Assembly (NCBI GenBank): GCA_027311185.1
Contig: DAICZK010000037.1
Location: 1 to 11,546 of the forward strand
DNA length: 11,546 nt
Reading direction: 5' to 3'
Source of the DNA: Sulfuriferula sp.
GTDB lineage: Bacteria > Pseudomonadota > Gammaproteobacteria > Burkholderiales > Sulfuriferulaceae
The notes under the pieces are model-generated. The model was not told where the DNA came from and did no database searches. It worked only from the letters and a program-made list of their open reading frames with translations. A program made the position numbers and the translations under genes. Shown in pieces: positions 1 to 9,555 of this stretch; position 1 is the first letter of the stretch, and the number at the start of each line of letters is the position of its first letter.

Positions 1-289
1 AACTCAGCAATTCCACGGTAACGTTTTCGGCACCCATCATGGTCTGGCAAGCCAGGCGCGATTTGGAGCTGACGCCAACGATGCTGTCGAGTTTTTCGTT
101 CTCCAGGCGCTGCGGTTTGGACAGACTTTTGCGGCCTTCCTGTATATAAATGTGACAGGAACCGCATTCGGCTTTGCCTTCGCATTTATGCATGATTTTT
201 TCGCCAGCCTGCATAATCGCGGCAAGCAAACTGATTCCAGCATCGACTTCGACCGTTTTACCGCTGGGTTGTATGGTTAACTGGGACAT
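1..289 (-). CDS. 2Fe-2S plant-type ferredoxin (partial, C-terminus beyond window edge)
   Basis: The frame runs from the ATG at 289-287 to the window edge with no stop, giving 96 residues beginning MSQLTIQPSG. It is a small beta-grasp ferredoxin. Cysteines at residues 36, 42, 45 and 81 form the C-X5-C-X2-C...C pattern that holds a [2Fe-2S] cluster, seen as CEGKAECGSC and later LACQ. Family knowledge says such proteins carry single electrons. In nif operons similar ferredoxins are thought to serve nitrogenase or Fe-S assembly, and that role here is inference from context. An AAGGAG ribosome site lies about 8 bases before the ATG. It follows the SIR2-like gene after 43 bases, so it is probably the next gene of the same transcript. 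The missing C-terminus should be short, since all four ligands are already present. The spacing resembles adrenodoxin/ISC-type more than chloroplast-type ferredoxins. Confidence 0.9.
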   Translation of the reverse strand, partial: MSQLTIQPSGKTVEVDAGISLLAAIMQAGEKIMHKCEGKAECGSCHIYIQEGRKSLSKPQRLENEKLDSIVGVSSKSRLACQTMMGAENVTVELLS

Positions 290-332: not shown

Positions 333-1184
333 TCAAGCTGCGTCGACCAACTGCTCCTGCGTCAGTATCGCCGCGAATTCTGCTAACGGCATATAAATCG
401 GCTGGATATTCTGCTCGGTGAGGAAACGTAATTCGTTGCGCGTAGGCTCGCAAGACAGCACGGCCCAGTGTTGATCGGACGAACGTTTCATGATCTGGCG
501 CGCGAAAGTACGCTGCAACTGATCGTTAAAACGACAGCCCAGAAACAGGAAATGGCGGCCGGCGCGCAGCGACTGCACCCGCGCCGGAATAGGCGTCTGG
601 ATGTCGATCTCGGTCAGCACTTCGACATAATCCGAATCGGAAACGAGATAATTGGCGGCCGGGCGCACGCAGCCTATAGGCTGGTATAGCAGGCTGCTCC
701 AGGTTTCGGCTTCAGCCTCGGTAGCGGGGCTGCCGTTGGCGTGGAAATATGCCGTCCACTGACCGAAATGCTCGGCTTGCGACAAACCCTGCACCAGTCC
801 CCAGTTACTGCGTGCGGCAAACGCGTTTTGCGGGGCATCGTCGTACCAGGCGGCAACCAGCAGTGAGAGCGTCGGCAACGATGCGAAATAATTATGCAAC
901 GCCGACGGCGTAACGCTGGGCTCGAACGCAGCGTTCATCAGACTGGTCAGCGTCTTGCGGTGTTTGAAGTTCTCGATGAACTGCGCGGCTGAAGTCAAGC
1001 GCTTGCGGATTTTGTGCGGCACCGTGACTTTTGCCGTCATCAGTTCGGCCAGCGCCTCGGGAGTAGCCGGCACCGGCGAGCCGTGGGCGATTAGATCGAG
1101 CATACCGGGTCCGAAATAGGGAATAATGCGATCATGGGCAAGGCCTTCGATCAACGGTCTGAGTAAGGTAGCGGTATCAGTCAT
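333..1184 (-). CDS. SIR2-like (SIR2_2-type) protein of the nif operon, catalytic residues apparently lost
   Basis: This 283-residue soluble protein resembles the SIR2-like family of NAD-binding Rossmann proteins. An N-terminal GPG loop (IIPYFGPGM, residues 20-28) sits where sirtuins have GAG. The stretch VAAWYDD (110-116) matches the usual TTNYDD segment, and a C-terminal SDSDYVEVL...FLFLGCRFND block (182-221) is typical of SIR2_2 proteins. Catalytic SIR2 proteins use the Asn of the TTN segment and a His in a later LHG motif. Here those places hold Trp113 and YQPIG (167-171). I infer that NAD hydrolysis or deacylation is unlikely and that the protein may bind a nucleotide or a partner instead. 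The ATG at 1184 has only a weak GAAAG ribosome site. The gene follows the DegT-like gene after 34 bases and precedes a ferredoxin. The family assignment is fairly secure; the role is unknown. Confidence 0.78.
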   Translation of the reverse strand: MTDTATLLRPLIEGLAHDRIIPYFGPGMLDLIAHGSPVPATPEALAELMTAKVTVPHKIRKRLTSAAQFIENFKHRKTLTSLMNAAFEPSVTPSALHNYFASLPTLSLLVAAWYDDAPQNAFAARSNWGLVQGLSQAEHFGQWTAYFHANGSPATEAEAETWSSLLYQPIGCVRPAANYLVSDSDYVEVLTEIDIQTPIPARVQSLRAGRHFLFLGCRFNDQLQRTFARQIMKRSSDQHWAVLSCEPTRNELRFLTEQNIQPIYMPLAEFAAILTQEQLVDAA

Positions 1185-1218: not shown

Positions 1219-2370
1219 TTAATAAATGGCGGCACCTGCACCGACGTTAATCGATGAATCCTTGGTCGTAGTGACGATAAAGAGCACCGTGTCTTTATCC
1301 AGATGTGCGTGAAACGGTAACGACAACGAACGATCGGCGATTTTTTCGGTCACGAACAGATCGCCTTTCCTGTAACCCAGCGTACTGTAGTAATACTGAA
1401 GATGCAGCGGATTACAGAACGCGGGTACTTCGATCTGCGCAGTCAGGAGGTCATCGACGATCTGGTTGCGTGCGCTGCGGGTAAAACGGGTTCCCAGATG
1501 GATAAGATAAACCATCCAGTGCACCTCATCGACCTCGGGCGCGACATACGCCGGCTTGATGCCCTCGAACGATTGTATGTATTCGCTGTAATAGCTTTCC
1601 ACGCGTTTGCGCCGCGCCAGTATTTCATCCAGCCGATCCAGTTGCGCGAGACCCAGCGCGGCGGCCATGTCGCTAATGGATGCCTGATACGGCACGCGCC
1701 CCGCGATGGAAATCGAAAATCGCTCATCCAGGCTGCGACTGCGCGTATAACGCAGCTCACTGGCAAGCTGATGATCGTCGGTCACTATCATCGCGCCTTC
1801 GCCGCAGACCAGCGCAGACGGCTGCGAGAAATCGAAAATTGCCAGGTCGCCGAACGTGCCGACCAGTTCGCCGTGATAACGCGAGCCGATCGCCTCGGTG
1901 GAATCCTCGATCAGTTTCAGACCGTGCAAATCGGCCAGCGCCCGAAACGGCCGCCATGCCGCCGGGTGCCCGTTGGTATTGCCTACCAACAGCGCGCGGG
2001 TTCGAGGCGTAATTTTCGCCGCCGCCTTGTCGACCGCCATCGTGCCCGACCAGTAATCGATGTCGGCAAACACCGGCGTCGCGCCGACCAGCACTATCGC
2101 ATGCGCTATCTGGTGCCAGGAATAGGCGCTCGCGATCACCTCGTCACCCGGCCCGATGCCGAGCGCGCGCAGGGCCACCATCAATGCCGCGGTACCGTTC
2201 GCGACTGCGATGCCGTAGCGCCGGTCCAGGCTTTCAGCGAAGGCATCCTCGAATTTCTCGACCACTTCGCCCGCCGAGATGCGCGAGGATTTGAGTACCT
2301 CTGCTACAGCATCGAGTTCGGTCTTGCTGATGTCAGGGTCGGTCAAGACGATCCAGTCTTCGGTTTCCAT
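1219..2370 (-). CDS. DegT/DnrJ/EryC1/StrS-fold protein lacking the PLP lysine
   Basis: The 383-residue product has the fold-type-I architecture of DegT sugar aminotransferases. Recognisable parts are the N-terminal SSGRIS-like segment (SSRISAGEVVEKFE, 28-41), the NGTAAL motif (58-63), GDEVIASAYSW (75-85), the PLP-contacting aspartate in LIEDSTEAIGS (153-163), the GEGAMIVTDD segment (190-199) and the conserved helix ISDMAAALGLAQLDRLDEIL. In active members the segment before GEGG reads SFxxTK, whose Lys forms the Schiff base with PLP. Here it reads DFSQPSALVCGEG, with Ser185 in place of Lys, so ordinary transamination is unlikely. The start at 2370 is chosen because a GTGGAG site lies 9 bases upstream and family similarity begins there. 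An upstream in-frame start at 2439 would add 23 unrelated residues. The gene follows the 87-residue gene by 5 bases. Its substrate and role in nitrogen fixation are unknown. Confidence 0.88.
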   Translation of the reverse strand: METEDWIVLTDPDISKTELDAVAEVLKSSRISAGEVVEKFEDAFAESLDRRYGIAVANGTAALMVALRALGIGPGDEVIASAYSWHQIAHAIVLVGATPVFADIDYWSGTMAVDKAAAKITPRTRALLVGNTNGHPAAWRPFRALADLHGLKLIEDSTEAIGSRYHGELVGTFGDLAIFDFSQPSALVCGEGAMIVTDDHQLASELRYTRSRSLDERFSISIAGRVPYQASISDMAAALGLAQLDRLDEILARRKRVESYYSEYIQSFEGIKPAYVAPEVDEVHWMVYLIHLGTRFTRSARNQIVDDLLTAQIEVPAFCNPLHLQYYYSTLGYRKGDLFVTEKIADRSLSLPFHAHLDKDTVLFIVTTTKDSSINVGAGAAIY

Positions 2371-2375
2371 GAGGT

Positions 2376-2639
2376 TCAGCTCCACGCGGCGAGTATCACG
2401 CCCGTGGCAACCCCGGGCTCGTCTATCATGCGCCAGCAATGATTGCTGGTGTCAACCAGAAACACGTCGAACTCGCCGATACGCCGATACGGCGTTTCGT
2501 GACGCATGTCGGCTGCATCGCAGCGCGACACCGTCAGATCTGGAAAAGACGCCCGCACCACCGGTACGGGGTTGCCGCCAGCAGGAACAGCCAGCAGCAA
2601 TGCCGCCAGTTCATCGATTCGCTCAGCTTCAATAGCCAT
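2376..2639 (-). CDS. small uncharacterised protein between nifT and the DegT-like gene
   Basis: An 87-residue acidic protein begins MAIEAERIDELAALL and ends GVILAAWS. I do not recognise a characterised family. It may be one of the small nif-cluster DUF families that follow nifT. It has no membrane segment or signal peptide. A charged N-terminal helix (residues 2-15) is followed by a compact alpha/beta region with FDVFLVDTSNHCWRMID near the C-terminus. Two cysteines are present but do not form a cluster motif. The ATG at 2639 is one base after the nifT stop, with a GGGAGA site inside the end of nifT, so translation is probably coupled. The stop is 5 bases before the DegT-like start. The same frame stays open upstream to 2828, but that part is an arginine- and tryptophan-rich shadow of nifT. 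The tight packing makes this a real gene of unknown function. Confidence 0.82.
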   Translation of the reverse strand: MAIEAERIDELAALLLAVPAGGNPVPVVRASFPDLTVSRCDAADMRHETPYRRIGEFDVFLVDTSNHCWRMIDEPGVATGVILAAWS

Positions 2640-2640
2640 G

Positions 2641-2850
2641 TCATTCTCCCACTTTACGCGCGTCGACCGTGATCGGCAGCGCCGTGTCGGCCGCCAGCGC
2701 CGGCAGCTCCAGCTGCAGTCCGTTGCCGAGCGTGATGATGCCGCCCCACATCGTCGGCGTATCCATCGCGACGATGGGCTCCTCAAGATCCTTTTTCGGT
2801 ACGTAGGCCGATAATGCGCCGGCAGCATTTTTACGGATCATAATTTTCAT
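2641..2850 (-). CDS. nifT: NifT/FixU family protein
   Basis: The 69-residue product beginning MKIMIRKN matches the whole length of NifT/FixU. The diagnostic stretches are YVPKKDLEEPIVAMD (16-30), the WGG turn (35-37) and the C-terminal LPITVDAR (59-66). NifT is a small protein encoded in many nif clusters; its exact biochemical role is not established and it is usually dispensable for nitrogen fixation. A longer reading from a TTG at 2868 is possible, but the family starts at MK-MIR, so the ATG at 2850 is preferred. The ribosome site is weak (TTGGAAA). The gene lies 32 bases after the nifS stop and one base before the next small gene, consistent with a single transcript nifS-nifT-unknown. Confidence 0.94.
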   Translation of the reverse strand: MKIMIRKNAAGALSAYVPKKDLEEPIVAMDTPTMWGGIITLGNGLQLELPALAADTALPITVDARKVGE

Positions 2851-2882
2851 ATTCAGATTTCCAATCAACGACTAAAATTCCA

Positions 2883-4034
2883 TCAAGCGGCGATTCCGGC
2901 CAATGGTCGTACCATATTCGGCAACACTTCAAGGAGACGCTCCACCTCTTCCATCGTGTTGTAACGGCTCAATGAAAAACGCACGGCGGCGAGGGCCTGA
3001 TCCGGCGATTGCCCCATCGCCAGCAAAACATGCGACGGCTCGGTACCTCCCGCGGTACAAGCGGACCCGCTGGAGACGCAGATACCGGATTTATCCAGCC
3101 TGTCGAGTACGATCTCGGCGTTGATGAGACCAAAACGCATGTTGCTCGTATTCGCCACTCGCGCAACGTTGCCAGAGTTAACCTGCGCGAACGGCAGCGT
3201 TTGCGCAATTTTCTGCTCCAGATAATCGCGCATGCCACGGATACGTTGCCCGTCTACCTCAAGACGTATCATCGCCTGCTCTGCCGCCACGCCCAGTCCG
3301 ACGATGGAGGCAACATTTTCGGTACCACCGCGCCGCCCGCGTTCCTGGTGGCCGGACAACAATGCCGGCAGTTTGAAGCCCTTGCGCACGAACAGCACGC
3401 CTATGCCTTTGGCGGCGTGAAGCTTATGCCCTGAAAACGACAGCATGTCGATCGGCAACTGGCCGAGCTGTATAGGCAAACGCCCTACTGCCTGTACCGC
3501 GTCGGTATGAAACGGCACCCCGCATTCGGCAGCAATCGCTGCTGCCTGCGCTACCGGCAGAACGACGCCGGTTTCGTTATTTACCCACATCATGCTCACC
3601 AGCGCGGTCTGTGGCGTGACCGCGGCGCGCAGCGCGTCGAGATCCGGCAGCCCGTCGCTGTCGACGGCGATTTCGGTGACACTCACGCCCTCGCGAATCA
3701 GACGCGCGAGCAGCAAACGAGTCGAAGGATGCTCCACCGCGCTGACCACCACGTGCCGCCGCGACGGGTCACGCGCCAGCGCGCCCAGTATGGCCAGATG
3801 GTTGCTCTCGGTCGCGCCACTGGTAAAAACGATTTCGGCCAATGTCGCACCGAGCAGCACCGCTACCTTCGCACGCGCTTCCAGCACCATCTGCTTGGCC
3901 GCCGCACCAGCCTTGTGCTGGCTGGACGGATTGCCGTAACACTCCGCAAGACACATCGTCATTGCCGCGACGACTTCTTCCGCCACCGGCGCAGTCGCGT
4001 TGTTATCCATGTAAATCCAGGCGGGATGGGTCAT
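2883..4034 (-). CDS. nifS: Cysteine desulfurase NifS
   Basis: A 383-residue pyridoxal-phosphate enzyme that removes sulfur from L-cysteine and passes it as persulfide to Fe-S scaffolds. Visible motifs are YMDNNATAP at the N-terminus, TSGATESN (71-78), His101 in VEHPS, the PLP aspartate in FHTDAVQ (Asp178), the Schiff-base lysine in SFSGHKLHAAKG (Lys204), RGGTEN (235-240) and the catalytic cysteine loop SSGSACTAGG (Cys326). The short SACTAGG loop is typical of the NifS/IscS class rather than SufS. Length and motif order match NifS. The ATG overlaps the stop of the upstream gene as ATGA, so the two are translationally coupled. nifU, the usual partner, is not adjacent here; nifT follows instead. 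The context makes NifS more likely than housekeeping IscS. The enzyme should supply sulfur for NifB and nitrogenase clusters. Confidence 0.96.
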   Translation of the reverse strand: MTHPAWIYMDNNATAPVAEEVVAAMTMCLAECYGNPSSQHKAGAAAKQMVLEARAKVAVLLGATLAEIVFTSGATESNHLAILGALARDPSRRHVVVSAVEHPSTRLLLARLIREGVSVTEIAVDSDGLPDLDALRAAVTPQTALVSMMWVNNETGVVLPVAQAAAIAAECGVPFHTDAVQAVGRLPIQLGQLPIDMLSFSGHKLHAAKGIGVLFVRKGFKLPALLSGHQERGRRGGTENVASIVGLGVAAEQAMIRLEVDGQRIRGMRDYLEQKIAQTLPFAQVNSGNVARVANTSNMRFGLINAEIVLDRLDKSGICVSSGSACTAGGTEPSHVLLAMGQSPDQALAAVRFSLSRYNTMEEVERLLEVLPNMVRPLAGIAA

Positions 4035-4429
4035 TGCCAGAACACCCTTTGCGGATCCTGATTGAGATACGCGATCGCCGTCTGCAGATCAGCCGCATGC
4101 GTATGCAGCTCCCAGCTGTCGTACACGTGATCCTTCTGATACAGCCGCCAAGCCCCCAGGTCAGCCACATATTCGAGCCTGGCGATGTCGACCGTGCCCC
4201 CCTCCGCGTCGATATTACGCGCGCAACAAGGACTGACGATCAGGTAACCCTCGCTGACGGGCAATACCTCGGGCGTGACGTAACGGTAACGCTGCCGTTG
4301 TTCGAGCAATTTCGCAATGCGCCGCAAATCAAGTTCGTTCGGATGCGCGGCCCAGCTTGCCACCCCGGGGCGACGCGCCGCAGGGTCCGCGCCCGCGTGC
4401 TGATGATGGGTCATCCGTCCTTTGTTCAT
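4031..4429 (-). CDS. uncharacterised nif-associated protein (possibly DUF3024-like)
   Basis: A 132-residue soluble protein from the ATG at 4429. The first 25 residues are basic and His-containing (MTHHQH, then RRPG), probably disordered. From about residue 30 a folded region follows: a helix (NELDLRRIAKLLEQRQRYRY), then beta-rich sequence with a CC pair (VSPCCARNID), then WRLYQKDHVYDSWELH. This order of helix, strands and a W-x-x-Y...D...W pattern resembles small DUF3024-type proteins, but that is a weak recognition. The C-terminal part (LQTAIAYLNQDPQRVFWQ) looks helical. The start could also be the ATG at 4414, preceded closely by AAAGGA; an open frame upstream to 4474 overlaps nifZ and is unlikely. 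It begins 11 bases after the second nifZ and ends by ATGA overlap with nifS. Function unknown. Confidence 0.78.
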   Translation of the reverse strand: MNKGRMTHHQHAGADPAARRPGVASWAAHPNELDLRRIAKLLEQRQRYRYVTPEVLPVSEGYLIVSPCCARNIDAEGGTVDIARLEYVADLGAWRLYQKDHVYDSWELHTHAADLQTAIAYLNQDPQRVFWQ

Positions 4430-4440
4430 GATCGTCTCGC

Positions 4441-4692
4441 TCAGGGCGCGAGGGCAAGTTCGTCTTCGAGGCAACCGACGACTCGACCCTGCTCAGGGGA
4501 TGCCATGAATTCGACCATGTAGACGGGGGTGTTGCTGTCGACATGATGCCCAACTTGCACTACTTCGCCCACGGTGCCTTGCGGCACCAGCAGTTCATCC
4601 ACCGCGTAATCGGGATAGGAGCCGTCGTTGACCAGATCAATTTCCGCGACCACGCGCTGCCCCCATTGAAATTTCGCTGTACTCGCATCCAT
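4441..4692 (-). CDS. nifZ: NifZ-family protein, second copy
   Basis: An 83-residue protein that is essentially one NifZ domain. It has FQWGQRVVAEIDLVNDGSYP near the start, a central LVPQGTVGEVVQVGHH and VYMVEFM, and a terminal GCLEDELAL. These align with the first NifZ of this window: YGEKVKSLKTVRNDGTFQG, LVKKGDIGYVTSIG, IYGIEFV and GMCGKELESL. NifZ is a chaperone-like factor needed for full maturation of the second P-cluster in MoFe protein. Whether this divergent copy does the same is inference. The ATG at 4692 has a GACGGAG ribosome site about 9 bases upstream. It lies 95 bases after the first nifZ, a wider and structured gap, and 11 bases before the next gene. It lacks the N-terminal acidic extension and the charged C-terminal tail of the first copy. 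Confidence 0.88.
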   Translation of the reverse strand: MDASTAKFQWGQRVVAEIDLVNDGSYPDYAVDELLVPQGTVGEVVQVGHHVDSNTPVYMVEFMASPEQGRVVGCLEDELALAP

Positions 4693-4747
4693 AACTCAAT
4701 ACTCCGTCAAAATCAGTCCAGATAAAATAAGTCTGCAAAACATTCCG

Positions 4748-4779
4748 CCTGCCATCGCCGCAGGTATCCGGATACCGGA
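4748..4779 (-). repeat. overlapping inverted repeats in the nifZ-nifZ spacer
   Basis: The spacer holds a perfect 14-base palindrome, GGTATCCGGATACC, at 4763-4776. A competing hairpin TCCGG-3-CCGGA lies at 4767-4779, and a second stem CCTGC-7-GCAGG at 4748-4764. Read on the transcript they lie just after the first nifZ stop (4788) and about 55 bases before the second nifZ start. Only a short TTTT follows, so a full terminator is unlikely. I infer an mRNA-stability, processing or attenuating structure, or a REP-like element. Confidence 0.55.
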
Positions 4780-4787
4780 CATCGCAC

Positions 4788-5090
4788 CTATTCCAGATAT
4801 TCTTCCGCCGGTGCGCGGTTCGGCTCCAGCGATTCGAGTTCCTTGCCGCACATGCCGACACGGTAACCATACTCGACGAATTCTATGCCGTAGATATAAA
4901 ACTGCTGCAAAAAGCTCCCTATGCTGGTGACATAACCGATGTCGCCTTTCTTGACCAGTATGTCTCCGATCTCCTTGCCCTGAAACGTGCCATCGTTGCG
5001 CACGGTTTTCAGGCTTTTGACCTTTTCGCCGTAATTGAAAACCGGCGGCCCGGTCAGCTCGACCACATTATCGTCACGACTGATTTTCAT
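4788..5090 (-). CDS. nifZ: NifZ, P-cluster maturation factor
   Basis: A 100-residue soluble protein matching NifZ over most of its length: PPVFNYGEKVKSLKTVRNDG (15-34), DILVKKGDIGYVTSIGSFLQ (43-62), YIYGIEFVEYGYRVGM (65-80) and CGKELESLE. In Azotobacter, NifZ helps convert the second precursor cluster of MoFe protein into a P-cluster. The product is somewhat shorter than the longest NifZ proteins, which carry C-terminal extensions. Its ATG at 5090 lies inside the end of the LRV gene (17-base overlap) with an AAGGGG ribosome site about 8 bases upstream, so translation is probably coupled to the LRV gene. A second NifZ-like gene follows after 95 bases. This copy is the more canonical of the pair, and I take it as the functional NifZ. 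Confidence 0.93.
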   Translation of the reverse strand: MKISRDDNVVELTGPPVFNYGEKVKSLKTVRNDGTFQGKEIGDILVKKGDIGYVTSIGSFLQQFYIYGIEFVEYGYRVGMCGKELESLEPNRAPAEEYLE

Positions 5091-5889
5091 GATAAAGCCC
5101 CTTGTTAACAGAATGCCTGAGGACTATCGACCTCGCCGCCTGCTGGCGCGACGTCACCATTTCGCGTACTGCTTCGTCTTCGTCGACCGACAACCGCGCC
5201 AGCTTGACCACATCAATGCGTTTCGCCACCTCGTAGCGCACGCGCCAGTCAGGATCGTCGAGCAGCATGGCGAGCTGTGTCGCCGACATGCGCCGCACCA
5301 CGACCAAGCGTACCGTAACTGCCTCGTCGTTGGCCATGACGCTGAGCCAATCGATACCGATGCGCTTTGCGACCTCACCGCGCACTTCCGCATCCTCGTC
5401 ATGCACCATCTGCGGCAACAATCCCACCGGCAGGCGGCGCGCGACGATAGTCCGCACGTAATAATCGCTATCGTGCACCATGCTGATCAAATCGGTTTCC
5501 GGCAACCGTGTCGCGACACGAATCCGTACTTCGCGATCCGGGTCCTGTCGCAACTTCATCAACTGCCGCAAAGTCAGACGTTGCGCCGCGCTCCAGCGCA
5601 CTGTCTCGTCCGCATCGTTAATGAGCTGCGGCAAATGAAAAACTTCAACATATTTGGCGGCAATGGCCCGCACCTCGAAATAAGGATGGCGGAGCTGATC
5701 CTTGGCGAGCTTGGGATTCCAGCGGAAAAACCGGTCTATGCGCAAGGCATAACGATCGAACACGCAGGCCAGCTGAGGCTGGCAGCGATTTTCCGCAAGC
5801 AGCTCGCGGTACGAACAGGTCTCGCAGTTCAATGCGCAGCCTTGCCAGTCCACTGCCGCGAAAGCCTCTGTAGTTTCAGTCGTCATCAT
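5074..5889 (-). CDS. LRV-type protein: N-terminal 4Fe-4S domain plus 24-residue helical repeats
   Basis: A 271-residue protein with two parts. The N-terminal domain has a cysteine cluster CALNCETCSYRE...C...C (residues 18, 22, 25, 36, 42), fitting the Fe-S domain of leucine-rich-repeat-variant (LRV) proteins first seen beside nitrogen-fixation genes of Azotobacter vinelandii. From about residue 68 there are seven consecutive 24-residue repeats, each starting with an acidic DxD-like turn followed by xVRxxVAxRL (for example DPDREVRIRVATRL, DSDYYVRTIVARRL, DEDAEVRGEVAKRI), plus a partial eighth. LRV proteins form a right-handed superhelix of alternating helices; their partner is unknown. Start choice: two adjacent ATGs at 5889 and 5886, overlapping the TPR gene end by 11-14 bases; an in-frame TTG at 5934 is less likely. 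The gene overlaps nifZ by 17 bases, so the TPR-LRV-nifZ genes are translationally linked. Family assignment is strong; function is inferred. Confidence 0.9.
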   Translation of the reverse strand: MMTTETTEAFAAVDWQGCALNCETCSYRELLAENRCQPQLACVFDRYALRIDRFFRWNPKLAKDQLRHPYFEVRAIAAKYVEVFHLPQLINDADETVRWSAAQRLTLRQLMKLRQDPDREVRIRVATRLPETDLISMVHDSDYYVRTIVARRLPVGLLPQMVHDEDAEVRGEVAKRIGIDWLSVMANDEAVTVRLVVVRRMSATQLAMLLDDPDWRVRYEVAKRIDVVKLARLSVDEDEAVREMVTSRQQAARSIVLRHSVNKGLYHENQS

Positions 5890-6427
5890 CTTGCCCAATA
5901 CGCTCCAGCACCCCGCGCAAAACCGAACCTCCAAGCCTGTCGGCGGGATCGAGCATCGTCAATTTGTCCACCATCGCCGCTCCGGTATCCATTTCCCCCA
6001 GGCGCATGTGCAGATACGCGCACCCCTTCAGGGTAAACAGATAAAATCTCGGCGCAGCGGCATAAGTCGAAAAATCCGCATGTTGCGGCGTCACTGCTTG
6101 CCAGTCTTGCGGCAAATTCAAATCCATCGCCGTTTTAACCAGACAGCGTTGCGCTACATCGAGCGCCTCGCTCAGACGATTCTTGTAAAAATAAAACCGG
6201 TACAGCGCAATATGCACCGCAGGGTGTTCGGGCGCTCGCGCATAAGCCTGCAAGAGATACCCTTCCGCTACCCCGTCGAGGTGGTATGCCGCCGCTGCAC
6301 GCTGCAAATCTTCCGCTACCTCGGCGGTTATTGCGCCGCCGAGACAGGCGGATTCCAGCCAGTCATTCAACTCGCCAGTCAGGCTCGAATCCAGCCCCAA
6401 CGACTCTGTCAATGTCGCAGCAGACAT
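5876..6427 (-). CDS. TPR-repeat protein of the nif operon
   Basis: A 183-residue all-helical soluble protein with degenerate tetratricopeptide repeats. The first repeats lie about residues 42-97 (AEGYLLQAYARAPEHPAVHIALYRFYFYKNRLSEALDVAQRCL). A second region, about 125-165, reads YLFTLKGCAYLHMRLGEMDTGAAMVDKLTMLDP, a clear TPR with the usual small and aromatic positions. It ends in an acidic run (GQDDDD). TPR proteins are protein-protein adaptors; a scaffolding role in Fe-S or nitrogenase assembly is inference from the neighbours. The ATG at 6427 is preferred. An in-frame GTG at 6439 directly follows the stop of the IscA-like gene and would add four residues; neither has a strong ribosome site. 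The gene runs into the LRV gene with a short overlap, suggesting coupled synthesis of the two repeat proteins. Confidence 0.84.
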   Translation of the reverse strand: MSAATLTESLGLDSSLTGELNDWLESACLGGAITAEVAEDLQRAAAAYHLDGVAEGYLLQAYARAPEHPAVHIALYRFYFYKNRLSEALDVAQRCLVKTAMDLNLPQDWQAVTPQHADFSTYAAAPRFYLFTLKGCAYLHMRLGEMDTGAAMVDKLTMLDPADRLGGSVLRGVLERIGQDDDD

Positions 6428-7098: not shown

Positions 7099-8652
7099 TC
7101 ACGCAGCGGCGATGTACGCGCCCTGACGGATATCGGCGTCGCCGCGTGCCTGATGCTCAATTTCGCCCGTACTCACCTTGGCGCAATATTCCCTGAAGTA
7201 GGTGATCGCCGATTCCTCGATAAACTCGTGCGCGAACCGGTCCACGGGATCTATCCCCGCGGCCTTGAGTTCATCGCGCGGGCAACCGCCGATCTTGGCA
7301 ACGAATACCGCATGACAGTCGTTGATGGCGCGAACGACCGAAGGCAAAGTCTCCTCCTCGCCAAAACCGCCCTGGCAATACAGGTCGACGCGACGGTGAC
7401 CGACGAATTTCGAACCGGCTGAACCGACTTCGTAAATCTGGAATTCGGTAGCGTGGCCGAAGTGCTCGTTGACGCGCCCTTGTCCCTTGGTCGCAACAGC
7501 AATCATCAGCTTGATGTCGGTCGTATCCAGATTGGCCATCGCGGCCTCCTTGGCGGCAACTTTTTCCATCCGCTCCGCTTCGACCAGCGCCTGGTAGTTT
7601 CTGCGCGATTCGGCGTCGTAGACGACTTCGCTCATCTCGTCGATTTTCTCAGTGGTAAACTCGGCGCTACGATCCTCACCCAGCAGGCCGACAGCATCGG
7701 CACGGCACTGACGGCAATGGCGCATCATGTTCATGTCGCCTTCGCACGCGTCCTGCAACGCCTTGAGTTCCTGCGCGCTAGGCCCGCGCTGGCCGTTGAG
7801 GCCGAATACGGTGCCATGCTCGGGTGCCGAAATCAGCGGCATGATATTATGCAGAAATGCGCCGCGCGATTTGACCGCCTTGTTCACCTCGACCAGATGC
7901 TTGTCGTTGATGCCCGGGATCATGACCGAATTGATCTTCGCCAGTACGCCCGCAGCAGTCAGCATCTCCAGCCCTAGCATCTGCCGTTCGGTCAGGATGC
8001 GCGCAGCTTCTATGCCGGTGTAGCGCTTGTTCTTGTAATAAATCCACGGATAAATATGCTGTCCGATTTCAGGATCGACCATGTTGATGGTAATCGTCAC
8101 ATGATCGACATTGAACGCCTTGATCGTGTCAACATGGTCGGGCAGAGCCAGACCGTTGGTCGACAGGCACAGCTTGATGTCCGGCGCCGTTTTGGCGATG
8201 AGCTCGAAAGTCTTGAAGGTCTTGGCCGGGTTTGCCAAGGGGTCCCCGGGTCCGGCGATGCCCAGCACCGTCATCTGCGGAATCGCCGACGCTACGGCCA
8301 GCACTTTTTTCGAGGCCTGCTCCGGCGTCAGTTTTTCGCTGACCACGCCTGGCCGCGACTCGTTGGCGCAATCGTATTTGCGGTTGCAGTAATTGCACTG
8401 GATATTGCAGGCGGGTGCCACTGCGACGTGCATGCGCGCGTAGTGATGATGTGCCTCTTCACTGTAGCAAGGATGGTTCTTGACCTTTTCCCATACTTCG
8501 GGCGCCATATCGGCCGGTCCGTCCGACGAACCACAGCTCGCCTTGCCGCCCTCGCTGGAAGTACCGCAGCCTTTATGCTCGGCTATTTGCTCAAGTATCT
8601 GTGTCAGCGGTTTGGCGGCCGACGTTTCCATATCTGTCATCGTAGATTGCAT
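7099..8652 (-). CDS. nifB: NifB, radical SAM NifB-co synthase with C-terminal NifX-like domain
   Basis: A 517-residue enzyme that builds the 8Fe-9S-carbide NifB-cofactor, the precursor of FeMo-co, from two [4Fe-4S] clusters and S-adenosylmethionine. The radical SAM motif CNIQCNYC (Cys82, Cys86, Cys89) is preceded by the family signature [16 protein letters not shown] (60-75). Other conserved points are [24 protein letters not shown] (131-141) and the pair HCRQCRADA (312-320), whose cysteines, with Cys62, help bind the additional clusters. After about residue 378 a dinitrogenase-iron-molybdenum-cofactor-binding (NifX/NafY-like) domain begins, with [24 protein letters not shown]. The two-domain length is normal for proteobacterial NifB. 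The ATG at 8652 has AGGGG about 8 bases upstream. A sigma54 promoter with NifA site lies upstream, making nifB the likely first gene of the long operon running leftward. Confidence 0.98.
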
Positions 8653-8705
8653 GAATCGCCCCTAAATCAAAAGTTGCGCTAAAAATAACCCCACGCACAA
8701 CCATT

Positions 8706-8721
8706 AGCCAGAAGCATGCCA
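8706..8721 (-). promoter_or_regulatory. sigma54 (-24/-12) promoter of nifB
   Basis: On the minus strand the sequence reads TGGCATGCTTCTGGCT: GG at 8720-8719 and GC at 8708-8707 separated by exactly 10 bases. Against the consensus TGGCAYG-N4-TTGCW the only mismatch is G for the second T of TTGC. Transcription would begin near 8695, leaving a leader of about 43 bases before the nifB ATG. Together with the activator site upstream this is a strong call. Confidence 0.82.
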
Positions 8722-8815: not shown

Positions 8816-8831
8816 TGTCGTAAAAATAACA
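8816..8831. promoter_or_regulatory. NifA upstream activator sequence (TGT-N10-ACA)
   Basis: A perfect TGT-CGTAAAAATA-ACA site is present. Its centre is about 128 bases upstream of the predicted nifB start of transcription, inside the 80-150 base range usual for NifA sites. It is the only perfect TGT-N10-ACA I find between nifB and the yqhA-like gene. Confidence 0.8.
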
Positions 8832-8988: not shown

Positions 8989-9525
8989 TCAATGTTCGCT
9001 TTTGGCATCTGACGCATGCGAGAGGTAAAGTGCCAGGCCGATGAGCGCGATGGCCCCGCCGAGATAAAGCAGATCGAGTGGTGTTTCGATCTTCACTCGG
9101 ATCGCTTCTTGGAACAGCGTGACGATCAGGATCATCAGAATCACCTTGGCAAGTCGTGATTTCAGATCATCCAGACTTTCGATCAGCAGTATTTTGCTCG
9201 ATCTTGCTTCCCCCTTGGCCTCGTCGATGTCGCTGATAAAAAGTTCATAGAGTCCGAGCGAGAAGATCAGCATGACGGTGGCAAGCAAATAGCCATCGAC
9301 TACCTCAACGACGTGGGTAATGGTGTCCTCGTGCAAACTCTGCCTGGCAGACGCGCTGAGGTCCGGATCAGCATAATGGATGATATGTTTGATCATGAAG
9401 AACACGTCTACAGTACACATGTAGAAGATGGCAAAGCCCGCAATCATGCTGGCTACGACGGCGAAAAGCACTACATAACGGCTGCGCCACAACGCGCCTT
9501 CGAAAAACGATTCAAGTAGTTTCAT
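8989..9525 (-). CDS. yqhA: YqhA/UPF0114 family four-helix membrane protein
   Basis: A 178-residue inner-membrane protein with four predicted transmembrane segments at about residues 17-38, 75-97, 126-144 and 151-169. The start MKLLESFFEGALWRSRYVVL and the motif VDGYLLATVMLIFSLGLYELFIS are characteristic of the YqhA (UPF0114) family, whose biochemical function is not established. Between the second and third segments is a charged cytoplasmic-type loop (DIDEAKGEARSSKILLIESLDDLKSRLAK). The ATG at 9525 is preferred over one at 9540, because AAGGA lies 8 bases before it and the family begins MKxxE. The gene stands between nifA and nifB with more than 200 bases on each side, and probably has its own promoter (a TATAAT box 31 bases upstream). 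It may be a passenger or may have a nif-related membrane role; nothing in the sequence decides this. Confidence 0.86.
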   Translation of the reverse strand: MKLLESFFEGALWRSRYVVLFAVVASMIAGFAIFYMCTVDVFFMIKHIIHYADPDLSASARQSLHEDTITHVVEVVDGYLLATVMLIFSLGLYELFISDIDEAKGEARSSKILLIESLDDLKSRLAKVILMILIVTLFQEAIRVKIETPLDLLYLGGAIALIGLALYLSHASDAKSEH

Positions 9526-9555
9526 CGGTATTTCCTTCATGAAAGATCATGGCTG

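Follow-up and report, generated by a model that had tools for sequence, protein, structure and literature searches.

The SIR2-fold protein encoded in the window (the whole stretch of 11,546 nucleotides analysed) belongs to a family that accompanies nif genes and in which the catalytic Asn and His of SIR2 domains are never retained together (0 of 510 best-match rows, not de-duplicated). Since this pair is lost in every row seen and both fold and sequence are firmly held, NADase or deacylase chemistry is argued against, and canonical SIR2 catalysis has very probably been lost in the nif family. The chances are about even that such a non-catalytic SIR2-fold protein guards nitrogenase in respiring cells. 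The analysis connects SIR2-named nif genes with a mutant whose phenotype depends on oxygen and nitrate, and the gene becomes a candidate part for installing nitrogenase in aerobic hosts.

Fold and active-site positions of the protein

The SIR2_2 scaffold claimed in the earlier note was confirmed. The score against PF13289 was 75.2 bits, the curated cut-off being 24.5, the match (profile positions 3-141) covered both the Asn-position and the His-position blocks, and the confident AF2 model has the SIR2 fold and matches the SIR2 domains of ThsA, DSR2 and KomC. No NCBIfam model matched the protein, and PADLOC returned only weak matches (LmuA 12.6 bits, ThsA 11.4 bits). As a single-sequence query against the PDB it retrieved no chain up to E 5, so that a profile was needed for the alignment; the profile of 19 nif-linked homologues aligned by sequence to the SeThsA, EcThsA and KomC chains, and that of group C alone (see below) gave one weak, irrelevant match. 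In the printed blocks of the ThsA/KomC alignment the Asn of TTNYD is matched by Trp113. A second block, weak at 2.9 bits (SeThsA), pairs the KPxG segment with K-L-H-G, which puts Ile170 of YQPIG at the His position. Both replacements were upheld as the earlier note had read them. The SIR2 NADase domains of ThsA, KomC and DSR2 share the fold and belong to defence loci, whereas the protein of the window is a stand-alone domain in a nif operon with both residues replaced. In ThsA, Asn112 and His152 are both required for NAD+ binding and cleavage; binding was lost in the N112A and H152A variants, the latter also disturbing the oligomer (available part of PMC7272460).

The nif-linked homologues formed three groups, named by the residues at the two positions: Trp/hydrophobic (the window's group), Trp/His (alpha, group A) and Asn/Leu-Met (group C). 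Each search gave 4368-5115 protein matches, of which the best 120 were examined (360 rows in all), and rows beyond these could therefore keep the Asn/His pair. Position 113 was Trp in 240 and Asn in 120 of the 360 best rows. Whether Trp113 and YQPIG are conserved had been raised by the earlier note, and the answer was divided: Trp113 held in the window's group (invariant in the best 120 rows, its own included) and in the alpha group but not in group C, where Asn stands, and position 170 was conserved in the window's group as a hydrophobic residue (Ile 70, Leu 39, Val 6, Trp 4, Met 1, and no His among the best 120 rows). Gly25 was identical in all 360 best rows, the GxG loop being largely kept, and D115, D183, D185, R207 and R218 were common to all three groups, identical in 90% or more of the rows of each. 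SIR2_2 domains carry a GxS motif; at its Ser, Arg218 was found in 120, 119 and 118 of the best 120 rows per group (357/360). The protein contains three Cys (172, 217 and 245) and no CxxC, so that the zinc-binding Cys tetrad of CobB-type sirtuin deacylases is absent from it.

Group C is about 26% identical to the window's group. In the tree the nif-type proteins formed one clade against 10 control SIR2_2 proteins (99/97), with the caveat that the tool warned of long branches meeting, among them group C with the controls. Nif-positive genomes also yielded 20 SIR2_2 proteins outside the family, and 19 of these kept the pair. The remaining sequence of the window's group is strongly conserved (e.g. 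TEIDIQTP), and the loss of the catalytic residues is for this reason not decay. One homologue among the 60 order loci (L161:8758-9729, minus strand) reads VDTGYDT, a further replacement, by Gly, at the Asn position.

Gene neighbourhoods and occurrence

The gene stands late in a nifB-nifZ-nifS-nifT run, as one of fourteen same-strand genes reaching from nifB to a 2Fe-2S ferredoxin with gaps of -59 to 95 nt (Table 1). The TGT-N10-ACA pattern occurs twice in the window (the other site at 1198), about three being expected by chance, and the position before nifB is therefore the sole support for an activator-like site.

Table 1. Features of the window and of the nif-type SIR2-fold protein encoded in it
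Feature	Position	Strand	Basis
2Fe-2S ferredoxin (ISC-type), downstream neighbour, cut by window end	2..289	-	PF00111; nearest PDB chain is a ferredoxin
nif-type SIR2-fold protein, 283 aa	333..1184	-	ORF; PF13289; AF2 model and fold matches
Arg218, where SIR2_2 has GxS; conserved across the three nif groups	531..533	-	row counts
YQPIG (167-171) at K-L-H-G position, Ile170 for catalytic His	672..686	-	rows and weak PDB block
Trp113 codon at catalytic Asn position (TTN of ThsA/KomC)	846..848	-	profile alignment
GPG loop, residues 25-27, SIR2 GAG position	1104..1112	-	sequence
DegT/DnrJ-type aminotransferase, upstream neighbour of SIR2 gene	1219..2379	-	PF01041
Small nif-operon protein	2439..2651	-	weak DUF6129, below cut-off
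NifT/FixU	2641..2862	-	PF06988, TIGR02934
NifS-type cysteine desulfurase	2883..4034	-	by eye; syntenic gene annotated cysteine desulfurase
DUF3024 protein, between NifS and NifZ	4031..4432	-	PF11225
NifZ, second copy	4441..4692	-	PF04319
NifZ, first copy	4788..5090	-	PF04319
4Fe-4S leucine-rich-variant repeat protein	5074..5934	-	PF05484/PF01816
NifB, first gene of run	7099..8652	-	by eye; syntenic gene annotated nifB
Sigma-54 -24/-12-like element, GG-N10-GC, imperfect	8705..8721	-	by eye; missed by script patterns
NifA upstream-activator-like site, TGT-N10-ACA, before nifB	8816..8831	-	pattern search
Hydrophobic protein of 183 aa, probably a membrane protein, encoded between nifA and nifB	8989-9540	-	ORF

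Eighty-one loci were compared: that of the window itself and, out of 237 relatives, the 80 ranked best; several of them are cut short. NifB was found in 68, NifZ in 70, the NifS cluster in 63 and NifT in 49 of these, together with the DegT aminotransferase cluster (69), the DUF3024 cluster (61), the small nif-operon protein (cluster c12; 58) and ferredoxin (53). A truncated-haemoglobin cluster was present in 21; 18 of these have it between the SIR2 gene and nifH, encoded on the opposite strand. Among its members (L048:17421-17861, L221:12155-12574) one was read as Bac_globin and one is annotated as group II. In all six A-clade loci that were read, L100-L105, as well as in Rhizobium etli p42d, nifT immediately precedes the SIR2 gene; some homologues lie on rhizobial plasmids.

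Most of the group C genes read stand away from nifZ-nifT. NifH was found in 8 of the 22 group C loci, and the SIR2 gene diverges from it in these 8; in L162 nifDK lie downstream of it on the same strand, unlike the arrangement of pnfA described below. Of the 22 loci, 17 have a hemerythrin-like gene downstream in the same orientation (L098, L155-L157, L159, L160, L162-L164, L166-L172 and L218; 16 by clustering, L162 in a longer frame), overlapping the SIR2 gene or lying within 10 nt of it in 11 of 16 and separated by 395-698 nt in the other five, as measured to the first possible start. The three of these proteins read contain PF01814, and a His/Glu/Asp spacing, which we take to be the hemerythrin ligand pattern, was found in all 16 clustered ones. 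Outside group C a strong hemerythrin match was obtained in L207 only. Downstream in L097 and L098 are genes for an iron superoxide dismutase and for a rhodanese-ankyrin protein, and 7 of 22 group C loci have nearby a cluster of which one member was read as flavodiiron-like.

The linkage to nif genes proposed in the earlier note was borne out in both genome samples. In the phylum sample the B-type profile matched in 17 of 398 genomes, all 17 of which also have a nifD-family match. At E <= 1e-50 such a match was obtained in 44 genomes, of which 41 exceed the nifD cut-off; the other three (G068, G177 and G253) contain weaker, NifE-like matches only, and two of these, G068 and G253, carry the SIR2 family gene. 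The A+B+C profile found the same 17 among the 44 nif-positive genomes and no family gene in the other 27. NifT, present in 41 of the 44, is for that reason uninformative as a partner. In the order sample (399 genomes) nifD was found in 57, the SIR2 family in 60 and both in 56; the gene, which tracks nif, is thus near-universal among the nif-positive genomes of the order (56/57, G513 being the sole exception) as against 4 of 342 genomes lacking a nifD match. In each of these four it lies on a cut contig, beside nif genes in L215, L216 and L218, and in L217 beside ferredoxin, the small nif-operon neighbour and a NifA-like ORF. A core nif gene was present in 55 of the 60 order loci fetched, and none within the stretch fetched of L158, L160, L165, L204 and L206. 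The SIR2 gene and nifD share one contig in 36 of the 56 genomes, at no more than 15 kb in 26 and 50 kb in 32. The class of G064 (Zetaproteobacteria, judged from the name of its homologue) has the family in 3 of 61 genomes, each of the three with a nifD-family match.

Published relatives and proposed function

The statement in the earlier note that such nif-linked proteins have no described function has to be withdrawn, since a mutant phenotype is on record for PnfA and homologues have been reported from Zymomonas, Rhodobacter and Mesorhizobium. According to the available part of the 2010 report, pnfA (PST1325) of Pseudomonas stutzeri A1501, encoding a 31.7 kDa protein, is divergent from nifHDK and NifA/sigma-54 dependent, with close homologues known at the time from diazotrophs only. 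Its non-polar mutant retained 23% nitrogenase activity at 0.5% O2, lost nitrate-supported fixation, still grew on nitrogen-free medium and was complemented, the nifH transcript being unchanged; electron transfer or oxygen protection was suggested, and no SIR2 fold is named in that part of the text (PMC2820453). In anoxia the mutant was wild-type-like, which is weak evidence because wild-type A1501 itself is much less active there (PMC2820453). A later table, in the part available, names PST_1325 a SIR2 family protein (PMC11332353). Judged by annotation, size, gene order and diazotroph-only homologues, PST1325 very probably belongs to group C (Asn kept, His lost), and its neighbour PST1324 is predicted to be hemerythrin-like as well. 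PnfA and the protein of the window are thus likely members of different groups (about 26% identical), likened by annotation, size and gene order; the restriction to diazotrophs is shared by the nif-type SIR2 family as seen with the B-type and A+B+C profiles.

Three other SIR2 or sirtuin-like genes lie in nif clusters, like that of the window; the passages available describe no biochemical function for their products. Rcc03262 of Rhodobacter capsulatus is encoded in the operon nifB1-rcc03265-nifZT-rcc03262 and was not found without NifA (PMC6925177). ZMO1821 of Zymomonas mobilis is up in N2 fixation, and a deacetylase was suggested by its authors (PMC8600466); it is also up under phenolic aldehydes (PMC4578398). 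The msi351 gene of Mesorhizobium loti belongs to a listed NifA-RpoN operon. Its mutant was fully effective in nodules, i.e. Fix+ (PMC3538637). Set side by side by description only, the three are expected in group A with His170 kept, unlike the window. In the open-licence literature, searched without the name pnfA, no account of the missing catalytic residues of the family was found.

A phenotype dependent on O2 or nitrate without a change of transcript would point less to gene regulation or obligatory maturation than to nitrogenase being protected or supplied with electrons. The protein would represent a nif-dedicated branch of the SIR2_2 (ThsA/KomC/DSR2-like) fold without canonical NAD+ chemistry, produced with nitrogenase, very likely under NifA/sigma-54 control, and would act after transcription, nitrogenase being kept active during respiration with O2 or nitrate. 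Its degenerate domain would dock onto a component of nitrogenase, onto the enzyme's electron donor or onto an assembly partner, and the bound protein would be shielded or reloaded against O2/NO. In this it would cooperate with an O2-/NO-handling or Fe-S protein encoded in the same gene run, such as the hemerythrin of group C or the 2Fe-2S ferredoxin of the window's group; we infer that window-type and PnfA-type proteins share one job. Protection would agree with the hemerythrin neighbour of group C and with the lack of an effect in nodules. There, O2 is buffered by leghaemoglobin. The Fix+ msi351 mutant also counts against a guard, as do the 27 of 44 nif-positive phylum genomes without the gene and the single non-C locus (L207) with a strong hemerythrin match, and the nitrate phenotype could instead mean electron or energy supply.

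It is tempting to speculate that a phage-defence NADase fold lost its chemistry by different routes (at Asn or at His) and became a nitrogenase guard, its remodelled pocket (Trp/Asn 113, Arg218) binding a nitrogenase protein or cofactor and not NAD+, with the protein paired in one branch with a hemerythrin and the pair protecting nitrogenase in respiring cells. In this full form the proposal is possible but somewhat improbable; if true, a fold of defence enzymes would have been recruited without its chemistry.

Alternative roles

Two further roles, offered in the earlier note, have both lost ground. A ligand sensor, whose SIR2 pocket would take up NAD(H), ADP-ribose or a different nucleotide and signal the redox or ADP-ribosylation state to nitrogenase or NifA, would be consistent with the largely kept GxG loop and the five residues common to all groups, and is nevertheless held to be unlikely. 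It is weakened by the failure of ThsA N112A and of ThsA H152A to bind NAD+ (PMC7272460), and against it stand also the Arg found at the Ser of GxS in nearly all best rows and the unaffected nifH transcription of the pnfA mutant (PMC2820453). That the protein is a maturation scaffold for FeMo-co or P-cluster assembly with NifZ, NifT and NifB is doubtful as well, even with the gene placed after nifB-nifZ in most window-type loci and directly after nifT in the A-clade loci and R. etli, since the anaerobic pnfA mutant was wild-type-like (PMC2820453) and the msi351 mutant Fix+ (PMC3538637); the position of most group C genes away from nifZ-nifT also speaks against it. That the gene is a captured defence gene carried by mobile nif islands, as its phage-defence effector fold and the rhizobial plasmids might suggest, is very improbable in view of the separate nif-type clade, its presence in nearly all nif-positive genomes of the order, the strong sequence conservation and the published NifA control and mutant phenotype. 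A substitute for DraT in post-translational nitrogenase switching was suggested by the phylum sample, where 22 of the 27 nif genomes lacking the gene have DraT but 4 of the 17 carrying it do, and is hardly credible. Replacement of DraT as a general rule was refuted by the order sample, in which 39 of 56 genomes carry both, and the phylum pattern probably reflects, for that reason, the sampling of few clades.

That the protein is an enzyme which has stayed active (deacetylase, ADP-ribosyl transferase or NADase) by using a relocated base, e.g. His139 for His170 in the window's group, is quite improbable. The deacetylase suggested for Zymomonas (PMC8600466) would favour it, and the loss of the catalytic residues speaks against that suggestion; the missing sirtuin zinc site and the replacement of Asn by Trp in every row concerned count against an active enzyme. 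Among the 371 Trp113 rows His170 is present in 125 and a His at 136-142 in 243, the two never together and neither in 3; this mutual exclusion may mark lineages or a moved base, and could go back to a single event, since the pattern runs along two lineages.
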